Part shown: positions 21,696 to 23,292 of the stretch, piece after piece
How the letters are laid out: each line of letters starts with the position of its first letter
Numbering within the stretch: the stretch's first letter is position 1
DNA from: Nitrospira sp.
Lineage (GTDB): Bacteria > Nitrospirota > Nitrospiria > Nitrospirales > Nitrospiraceae
Reading direction: 5' to 3'
Assembly (NCBI GenBank): GCA_024998565.1
Contig: JACOEM010000007.1
Span: 1 to 64,000 of the forward strand
Length of the DNA stretch: 64,000 nt
Notes under the pieces: generated by a model
What the model was told of the DNA's origin: nothing
Seen by the model: the letters and a program-made list of their open reading frames with translations, nothing else
Database searches by the model: none
Program-made: the position numbers and the translations under genes

Positions 21696-21971
21696 TCAGG
21701 CTGGTCTGGTCCGTTGGGTCGGGGCGGCGTGGTGGATGTGGTGAATGTCCACGAGTTGTTCGGTCCGATCGATCGAATAAAAAATCCGCCAGTCGCCCAC
21801 CGCATATTTGTGGATTCCGGGCAGGTCGGCTGCGACCGGCTCATGGCGCAGATTATCGACGTTGGAGGCCAGCCACTTCGTCTTGTCGAACAGACGTTGA
21901 GCCATGGCAGGATCCGCCACGAGCAGGTCGGTAATGACATCGGGCCGGAAGGCTAAGCGAAACCAGGGCAT
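21696..21971 (-). CDS. RelE/ParE-family toxin-like protein
   Basis: About 91 residues from the ATG at 21971, one base after the stop of the preceding small gene. The C-terminal part (HEPVAADLPGIHKYAVGDWRIFYSIDRTEQLVDIHHIHHA) shows the RelE/ParE pattern of L.G..kyRvGdyRi.Y.id....v.v..i.hR. RelE-type toxins cut mRNA at the ribosome. The upstream gene has the usual position and size of an antitoxin. The final conserved Arg of the family is replaced by the HHA segment, so activity is uncertain. Confidence 0.75.
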   Translation of the reverse strand: MPWFRLAFRPDVITDLLVADPAMAQRLFDKTKWLASNVDNLRHEPVAADLPGIHKYAVGDWRIFYSIDRTEQLVDIHHIHHAAPTQRTRPA

Positions 21972-21972
21972 G

Positions 21973-22191
21973 TTACCACCGCAGGCCGAGCTTGTCGGCC
22001 ACTTCGTCACCGGTGATGCGTTCCGTCGAAGCCAGGGATTGCTTCAGGCGATCGCGAACCGACTCGCCGAGGGGCGCGCCGAGATCCGGGTCGCCCAGCA
22101 GCACGCGCAGCCGGTCGTCAACGATGCCTTCGACCAGGTTCTTGAGTTCCGCCAGCGTGAGATTGGAGAGACTTGTCGTTGTGTCGGACAT
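21973..22191 (-). CDS. probable antitoxin of the RelE-like pair
   Basis: 72 residues, highly charged and helical: SNLTLAELKNLVEGIVDDRLRVLLGDPDLGAPLGES. The start has AGAGGATTTC upstream. It precedes the RelE-like gene with a one-base gap, the normal antitoxin-first order of type II modules. It lacks a clear DNA-binding motif, though the N-terminal TLAELKNLVE segment resembles antitoxins of unclassified RelE pairs. Assignment rests on position. Confidence 0.65.
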   Translation of the reverse strand: MSDTTTSLSNLTLAELKNLVEGIVDDRLRVLLGDPDLGAPLGESVRDRLKQSLASTERITGDEVADKLGLRW

Positions 22192-22361: not shown

Positions 22362-22949
22362 CTATGCCCCGCACGGCTCCCCGCCGGATGACTCACAGGA
22401 ACAATCCAGACAACCATGGACGGAACAGGTGCCGCAGGCCTGTTCGATCCGGCGACGCAGCGCGGCCCTGGCTCGATGCACGCGAACCGCCGCATTTTCG
22501 GCGGTGATGCCTGACTGCTGAGCAAGATCTTTCAGTTTGCCTTCCTCCAGATCCACGATACGCAGGGCTTCGCGATATTCCGGCTTGAGCGTTTCCAACA
22601 GGCCTGAGACGCATCGGCAGATCTCCTGTCGTAGCTCCGCTTCAGGCTCCTGCACATCCGGAAATTCACGCCCCCAGGCTTCCATGGCTCGCGCGGCGGT
22701 GGACCGCTGCCGGTAGTGATCGATCACGGCGTTGCGGAGTACCCGATAGAACCAGGCGACGACCTTTTCGTCCTTCACGTCGCCCCCGCGCTCCAATCCA
22801 CGGGTAAAGGCCGCTTGCAAAATATCTTCTGCCACGGCGCGAGATTCCACGCGCCGTTCCAGGAAGGCCAGGAACTCACGGTGTCCTTTCACCAGTTGCG
22901 CGATGGCCTCCGGCGAAAGTGCTGTCGAGGGGTTGGATTCGAGGTTCAT
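22362..22949 (-). CDS. ECF sigma factor with cysteine-rich C-terminal tail (CorE-like)
   Basis: 195 residues. Sigma region 2 is seen in EDILQAAFTRGLERGGDVKDEKVVAWFYRVLRNAVIDHYRQR and region 4 in LETLKPEYREALRIVDLEEGKLKDLAQQSGITAENAAVRVHRARAALRRR. After region 4 is a tail with six cysteines (C172, C175, C180, C183, C185, C193), spacing CX2CX4CX2CX1CX7C. In the CorE group such a tail binds copper or cadmium and switches the sigma factor without an anti-sigma factor; none is encoded next to it here. It is divergent from a metallothionein-like gene 106 bases away, which suggests that gene as its target. The metal specificity is unknown. Confidence 0.85.
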   Translation of the reverse strand: MNLESNPSTALSPEAIAQLVKGHREFLAFLERRVESRAVAEDILQAAFTRGLERGGDVKDEKVVAWFYRVLRNAVIDHYRQRSTAARAMEAWGREFPDVQEPEAELRQEICRCVSGLLETLKPEYREALRIVDLEEGKLKDLAQQSGITAENAAVRVHRARAALRRRIEQACGTCSVHGCLDCSCESSGGEPCGA

Positions 22950-22974
22950 GGGAGCAGCTTACCAAACTGTGTGC

Positions 22975-23034
22975 GGAACTGTAAGGTTTCCGGGGGCCCT
23001 CCGTCAGCCTTTGTGACGACGCAATCACGCGTCG
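22975..23034. promoter_or_regulatory. divergent regulatory region between sigma factor and metallothionein-like gene
   Basis: GGAAC at 22975-22979 and GGAAA on the other strand (22987-22991) form an imperfect dyad; GGAAC is the usual ECF -35 core. CGTC at 23002-23005 could be a -10 for the plus-strand gene, but the spacer is 22 bases instead of the usual 16-17. Further down, CGACGC (23017-23022) and GCGTCG (23029-23034) make a perfect inverted repeat with a six-base spacer just before the ribosome-binding site. Confidence 0.4.
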
Positions 23035-23055
23035 GCATCTCAAAGGAGACTCACC

Positions 23056-23217
23056 ATGGCCGAAGTGAAAAAAACCACCGCGCAGAAGATTGCCAAGACA
23101 AGCTGTTGCGGAACGTGCGAATGCGCATCCTGTTCTTGCGGATGCCAGGCAAACGCCTGTCGCTGCGAGCAAACCAATTGCCAATGTGGTTGCCGCAAGC
23201 AATCCGCCGGTCGGTAG
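23056..23217 (+). CDS. metallothionein-like cysteine-rich small protein
   Basis: A 53-residue protein with 12 cysteines (23%), nearly all in CxC and CxxC patterns: SCCGTCECASCSCGC in the middle and NCQCGC near the end. The N-terminal 15 residues are lysine and threonine rich, without cysteine. There is no signal peptide or histidine. Such composition fits a cytoplasmic metal chelator like metallothionein, although the order does not match the BmtA/SmtA family that I know. AAAGGAGACTCACC before the ATG is a good ribosome-binding site, and a GC hairpin follows the stop. It faces the cysteine-tailed sigma factor gene, and the two likely form one metal-response unit. Confidence 0.75.
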   Translation: MAEVKKTTAQKIAKTSCCGTCECASCSCGCQANACRCEQTNCQCGCRKQSAGR

Positions 23218-23226
23218 GCAGTTGTG

Positions 23227-23255
23227 CCCCGCCCGCCGGATTGTGACGGGCGGGG
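23227..23255 (+). terminator. GC hairpin after the metallothionein-like gene
   Basis: A perfect 9-bp stem (CCCCGCCCG / CGGGCGGGG) with an 11-base loop, ten bases past the stop codon. There is no T-run after it, so it may act as an RNA-stabilising hairpin or a weak terminator. Confidence 0.6.
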
Positions 23256-23292
23256 TCACAGAATTCTACAGGCAGGGCCATGTGTGCAGGCG

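Follow-up and report, generated by a model that had tools for sequence, protein, structure and literature searches.

A CorE-like sigma factor gene and a divergent metallothionein-like gene in Nitrospira: a probable two-gene metal-buffering switch

Can an ECF sigma factor with a cysteine-rich tail and a short divergent gene for a protein of 12 cysteines form a metal response between them? The locus that raises this question lies in the window, that is, the whole 64,000-nucleotide stretch of Nitrospira sp. DNA that was analysed (contig JACOEM010000007.1, positions 1 to 64,000). A preliminary description had proposed that the sigma factor is a sensor that drives its own Cys-rich sink; comparative evidence (linkage, promoter, and CorE hallmarks) speaks for this proposal, but not for the promoter motif that it named. 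The two genes and their linkage can be read from the sequences themselves, as can the promoter, the hairpins, and the CorE hallmarks (Table 1), and we consider it probable that the pair constitutes a two-gene metal-buffering switch, in which the sensor would drive its own sink.

Table 1 Features of the two-gene unit (positions in the window)
Feature	Position	Strand	Evidence
CorE-like ECF sigma factor, 195 aa (sigma2, sigma4, Cys tail)	22362..22949	-	Pfam Sigma70_r2 + Sigma70_r4_2
C-terminal Cys tail	22371..22436	-	conserved core CGTCxxHGCxDCSC at 22395-22436; sixth Cys (22371-22373) variable
CXC motif C111-R-C113, linker just before sigma4	22611..22619	-	family and 28-row alignments
Putative housekeeping extended -10 of sigma gene, TGGTAAGCT	22956..22964	-	near-invariant in 20 genomes; inference
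ECF promoter of small gene, TGTAAGG-N15-CGTC	22980..23005	+	20/20 genus genomes, fixed spacing
5'-UTR hairpin	23014..23037	+	pairing and covariation
Shine-Dalgarno AAAGGAG of small gene	23042..23048	+	kept in genus alignment
Metallothionein-like gene, 53 aa, 12 Cys	23056..23217	+	dN/dS 0.21; Cys invariant in 19 genomes
3' GC-rich hairpin	23226..23256	+	covariation; weak T tract

The 53-residue, 12-Cys frame was confirmed, divergent from the sigma gene across a gap of 106 bp. Its shortness and the lack of a family match would suit a chance open frame within a conserved regulatory region. However, purifying selection acts on the frame (dN/dS = 0.21, with internal stops in 0 of 19 genomes), whereas of the other five frames four have dN/dS values of 1.1–1.6; the fifth, which is antisense and in register with the codons, gave 0.35, a value expected from third-position change. 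All 12 cysteines are invariant in the 19 genomes and encoded by mixed TGC/TGT codons, and homologues exist in another phylum. Selection, invariant cysteines, and cross-phylum homologues together refute the chance-frame reading, to which we assign a negligible probability.

The small protein contains CC, CxC, and CxxC clusters and no F, W, Y, or H. It thereby resembles the bacterial metallothioneins SmtA/BmtA, PmtA, and MymT, which are likewise small and Cys-rich, have no aromatic residues or histidine, and carry the same types of cluster; MymT, a copper-linked protein, is also of about its size. It differs from them in a Cys pattern dominated by CxC and in matching no Pfam or NCBIfam model. 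A comparison with the PDB returned no metallothionein, and matches to bovine antibody loops only, which were set aside. The protein is therefore metallothionein-like by composition, not by membership.

The sigma factor possesses both hallmarks of CorE and CorE2, namely a CXC motif between sigma2 and sigma4 and a Cys tail (review PMC8999054), which bears out its proposed likeness to the CorE group; the linker motif had been overlooked in the earlier account. CXC before region 4 was found in 41 of 41 aligned family members, all of which also have the Cys tail, and C111-C113 is unchanged across a 28-row sigma alignment. The tail of the window protein (CGTCSVHGCLDCSCESSGGEPC) contains a conserved core, CGxCxxHGCxxCxC, and has five invariant cysteines and a variable sixth. 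Six tail cysteines after region 4 had been described: the Cys tail stands, whereas the importance of the sixth residue does not, since it is absent in L031 and L033. On these features we class the protein as CorE-like. An AlphaFold2 model consists of two helical domains and a tail with pLDDT under 50 from residue 174 onward, which is predicted to be disordered when no metal is bound; the model added nothing more. The top NCBIfam match was SigZ (TIGR02959, residues 24-173), and membership was rejected at 100.2 bits, far under the curated cut-off of 168.65.

CorE and CorE2 of Myxococcus xanthus (former ECF44, now near ECF238) share with this protein the CXC motif, the Cys-rich tail, and the lack of an anti-sigma factor (PMC3107203, PMC8999054). 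In agreement with the claim that no anti-sigma factor is present, a Pfam search of six flanking genes returned no anti-sigma domain; a distant one is possible. The tail here is about 25 residues long, with five conserved cysteines in its CGxCxxHGCxxCxC core, compared with a 38-residue domain in CorE. On the other side of the sigma gene lies a gene for a ParE-like toxin (PF05016; window 21696-22191, minus strand), kept in most genus loci and overlapped from upstream by a 72-aa partner frame.

We investigated whether the two genes stand side by side in other genomes. The pair is adjacent in 20 of 29 Nitrospira genomes, including the close relative Candidatus Nitrospira defluvii, and the remaining nine have neither gene. 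Sigma orthologues in the 20 genomes are 84–97% identical, and the small gene adjoins every one of them (the G012 copy is cut by a contig end). This co-occurrence gave a Fisher p of 1e-7, computed without phylogenetic correction. The unit adjoins sbcD in most genus loci, and descent from one insertion may therefore explain much of the co-occurrence within the genus. The stronger evidence for linkage is provided by loci outside it.

Relatives of the small gene with 9–13 cysteines were found in 8 of 399 sampled genomes of Terriglobia (Acidobacteriota), a count that leaves out the misbinned G423; G422, added from a separate scan, brings the set to nine loci. Seven of the nine have a 65–80% identical sigma gene directly beside the small gene, divergent in six and co-directional in L178. 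In G422 the two genes share a contig but lie about 4.8 kb apart, and in G743 the contig ends too soon for its position to be read. An even sample of the Acidobacteriota phylum returned G421 as the sole genome and no other class. Metagenome-assembled genomes are among the Terriglobia genomes with the unit, and the divergence of their sequences argues against contamination. L121 (JADZCI010000367.1), labelled 'Bryobacterales', was rejected as a third lineage, as it has Nitrospira gene content with sbcD and sbcC as neighbours and is likely a binning error; the L022 and L114 matches are low-complexity and not homologues. We also observed a different short frame, of 15 cysteines, beside a paralogous CorE-like sigma gene in G421 (L152:8910-9116, minus strand), possibly a second, independent sigma-metallothionein pairing.

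The promoter was located by aligning the 20 intergenic regions of the genus. A GGAAC dyad had been put forward as the promoter; it is not kept across these genomes and was rejected as a -35, whereas TGTAAGG (22980-22986) and CGTC (23002-23005) are invariant around a variable 15-base spacer, with TGTAATG in one genome. All nine Terriglobia loci carry TGTAA[GT][GA]-N15-CGTC ahead of the small gene, so that the promoter precedes it in 29 of 29 readable loci in two phyla. L178 and G422 keep it at the small gene, though the sigma gene is not divergent there. The exact TGTAAGG-N15-CGTC pattern has one match in the 4.13 Mb genome of the window. Allowing one mismatch gave 45 matches, compared with 98 for a reversed-pattern control; a wide regulon was thus rejected, matches being at background, and a single target is the conservative reading. 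In L152 (position 7198) and L151 (position 6527), TGTAAGG-N15-CGTCAGCC stands ahead of a gene for a predicted secreted protein (L152:7276-7755). In L151 a homologue of this gene comes immediately after the small gene; a Pfam search gave no match.

The same geometry, in the general form TGTAA-N17-CGTC, occurs by 20 of 20 paralogous sigma genes of Nitrospirota. In nineteen cases the match lies on the strand of the sigma gene, at positions that range from 4 bases ahead of the gene end to 562 bases beyond it, and in one case it is divergent; across all 23 loci scanned, 29 matches were obtained against 2.1 expected. Its place beside paralogous sigma genes ties the promoter to the sigma family, and it is probably the promoter of that family; which sigma factor uses it cannot be proved by neighbourhood alone. 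At L154-L171 the motif comes right after nearly every CorE-like paralogue gene, upstream of copA or DUF4396 genes. TGTAA-N17-CGTC is likely the regulon code of the CorE-like family in Nitrospirota, and the promoter position hints that DUF4396 is metal-related.

For the sigma gene itself, TGGTAAGCT sits seven bases ahead of the start codon and points tentatively to an extended -10 of the housekeeping type and to a near-leaderless mRNA. CTTACA was rejected as a fixed -35: it is TGTAAG read on the opposite strand, and when the Terriglobia upstream sequences were read its distance from the -10 seemed to vary. For these two reasons we retained only the extended -10. Autoregulation via the ECF promoter was not evident.

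The mRNA of the small gene is predicted to be bracketed by hairpins. The inverted repeat CGACGC/GCGTCG of the preliminary description is real, and we place it in the predicted 5'-UTR, 9 to 32 bases past CGTC and near the predicted 5' end. There it would act as an RNA hairpin with compensatory pairs: 98.1% of cells are paired, nine cells changed on both sides, and 0 of 500 shuffles scored as high, with pairs exchanging among A-U, G-C, and G-U. With its G-U pairs and its site just past the predicted start of transcription, the repeat is better read as an RNA hairpin than as a repressor operator, and the latter was discarded. The 3' hairpin, which like the extended -10 had gone unmentioned in the preliminary description, begins 9 bases past the stop codon and covaries more: pairing holds in 95.6% of cells, both sides have changed in 16 cells, and 0 of 500 shuffles scored as high. 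It is likely a terminator or mRNA end. By eye, a hairpin around GCGC...GCGC lies in the same place in Terriglobia. An Rfam search of the window returned nothing. After the 3' hairpin, most genus loci (e.g. L005, L011, L018) share a conserved block, GGCATTGTGAGGACCTCGCCACTCGCG, that the window does not have.

Phylogenetic analysis of the sigma factors grouped the metallothionein-linked units with two Terriglobia paralogues (support 100/99, 15 rows) and kept the copA-linked sigma factors of Nitrospirota separate (96/96); the metallothionein-linked set itself is one side of a weakly supported branch (66/67). The Nitrospira sequences nest within those of Terriglobia, which suggests that the unit was transferred between phyla, a reading weakened by long branches and an arbitrary root. 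In Terriglobia, among them some soil Acidobacteriota, the unit has diverged in sequence and has the same promoter.

Which metal would such a unit sense? At least 10 of 18 Nitrospirota loci have a copA-type ATPase gene (HMA and E1-E2 domains) near the paralogous sigma gene, and the place of half of the 20 promoter-flanked sigma genes beside copper P-type ATPase genes makes copper the likeliest metal and our best guess. The CorE-type feature of metal-handling targets appears in relatives as the family promoter beside copA, and in the window as a metallothionein-like gene. A plasmid relative is found in a copper cluster of Dinoroseobacter shibae, and another, in Manganitrophus, near a copper ATPase gene; the genes around other plasmid relatives are unrelated. 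A multicopper oxidase gene occurs near the small gene of G422. The only copA over the cut-off in the window's genome has no TGTAAGG-N15-CGTC promoter and was rejected as a sigma target, and copper is accordingly argued from relatives. The same architecture might instead answer zinc or cadmium: CorE2, which belongs to the same group, responds to Cd and Zn, and metal specificity is set by the arrangement of the cysteines (PMC8999054). This alternative would also fit a copA that lacks the TGTAAGG-N15-CGTC promoter and the separation of the metallothionein clade from the copA-linked clade in the tree. We regard it as possible but unlikely, as paralogues with the same CXC and tail adjoin copper ATPases, an Acidobacterial sister (L153) adjoins the gene for a CopA-type ATPase and has same-type promoters in its vicinity, and L131 has a multicopper oxidase gene close by.

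In the switch that we propose, a basal amount of sigma factor would be made from the housekeeping-type extended -10 and would be inactive at rest without an anti-sigma factor. A thiophilic metal, most likely copper, would be bound by the linker CXC and the CGxCxxHGCxxCxC tail and would render the protein competent for DNA binding. The active sigma factor would then recognise TGTAAGG-N15-CGTC and transcribe the divergent small gene, yielding a short mRNA with a hairpin at its 5' and 3' ends and a burst of the 12-Cys metallothionein-like protein, which would bind metal. By taking metal from the sigma factor, this protein would turn the response off as free metal falls. CorE requires copper but no anti-sigma factor (PMC3107203); it is from CorE that we infer the metal steps, namely metal identity, activation, binding, and feedback. 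A narrower version, in which the single dedicated target is a new metallothionein family, the unit has spread between phyla with its promoter and hairpins, and the metallothionein strips the sigma factor of metal, has in our view an even chance of being correct.

The small protein could alternatively be an off-switch or ligand donor acting on the sigma factor (a soluble, metal-stripping anti-sigma factor) and not a sink, a role that perfect co-occurrence and the single recognisable target in the genome would suit. However, an abundant product is suggested by the strength of the ECF promoter, by the Shine-Dalgarno sequence, and by the protective hairpins, and a Cys count varying from 9 to 13 in Terriglobia fits a sink more than a specific binding partner; we hold this role to be improbable. 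Nitrospira lives with nitrite and reactive nitrogen, and Cys-rich modules can serve as redox sensors. The pair might accordingly answer thiol, oxidative, or nitrosative stress; its cysteines would then work as redox switches, and the small protein would be a reservoir of thiol or of Fe-S/persulfide. The copper-gene neighbourhoods of relatives argue against this, as does the CXC with a Cys tail, a metal-sensing signature in characterised members (PMC8999054), and we consider a redox role very improbable.

The metal-buffering switch, if correct, would combine elements that are known separately. CorE and CorE2 are tied to metal handling (PMC3107203, PMC8999054), as this unit probably is. The targets of CorE are efflux and oxidase genes (cuoB, copB), whereas the adjacent and only recognisable target here is the metallothionein-like gene. 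The copper ATPase-linked CorE-like sigma factors of Nitrospirota, 37–47% identical to the window protein, have the same CXC, tail, and TGTAA-N17-CGTC; they differ in their targets (copA, DUF4396, and other genes) and in a tail that ends ...CxCE with no extra residues. SmtB, which controls a bacterial metallothionein, is a DNA-binding repressor. The DNA-binding repressor RicR controls MymT (PMC10141476). Known bacterial metallothioneins are under repressors and not, as proposed here, under a sigma factor. In the open-licence papers searched, a pairing of a CorE-like sigma factor with a metallothionein is not described, each being known separately, and no paper was found that joins metallothionein, Nitrospira, and sigma factor. 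A sensor of the CorE-like type has precedent, whereas its private single target and the metallothionein family both look new.

If true, this would be the first metallothionein, in the literature searched, driven by a metal-sensing sigma factor and not by a repressor, in a very small circuit. It would add to nitrifiers, organisms whose sensitivity to copper is of concern in wastewater treatment, a bacterial metallothionein family invisible to family searches, and it provides a promoter consensus, open to testing, for an ECF sigma group that is poorly mapped. Should the reading of a buffer with its own private sigma factor hold, TGTAA-N17-CGTC would predict targets in other genomes, and the conserved linkage would offer a ready two-gene part for metal biosensors.
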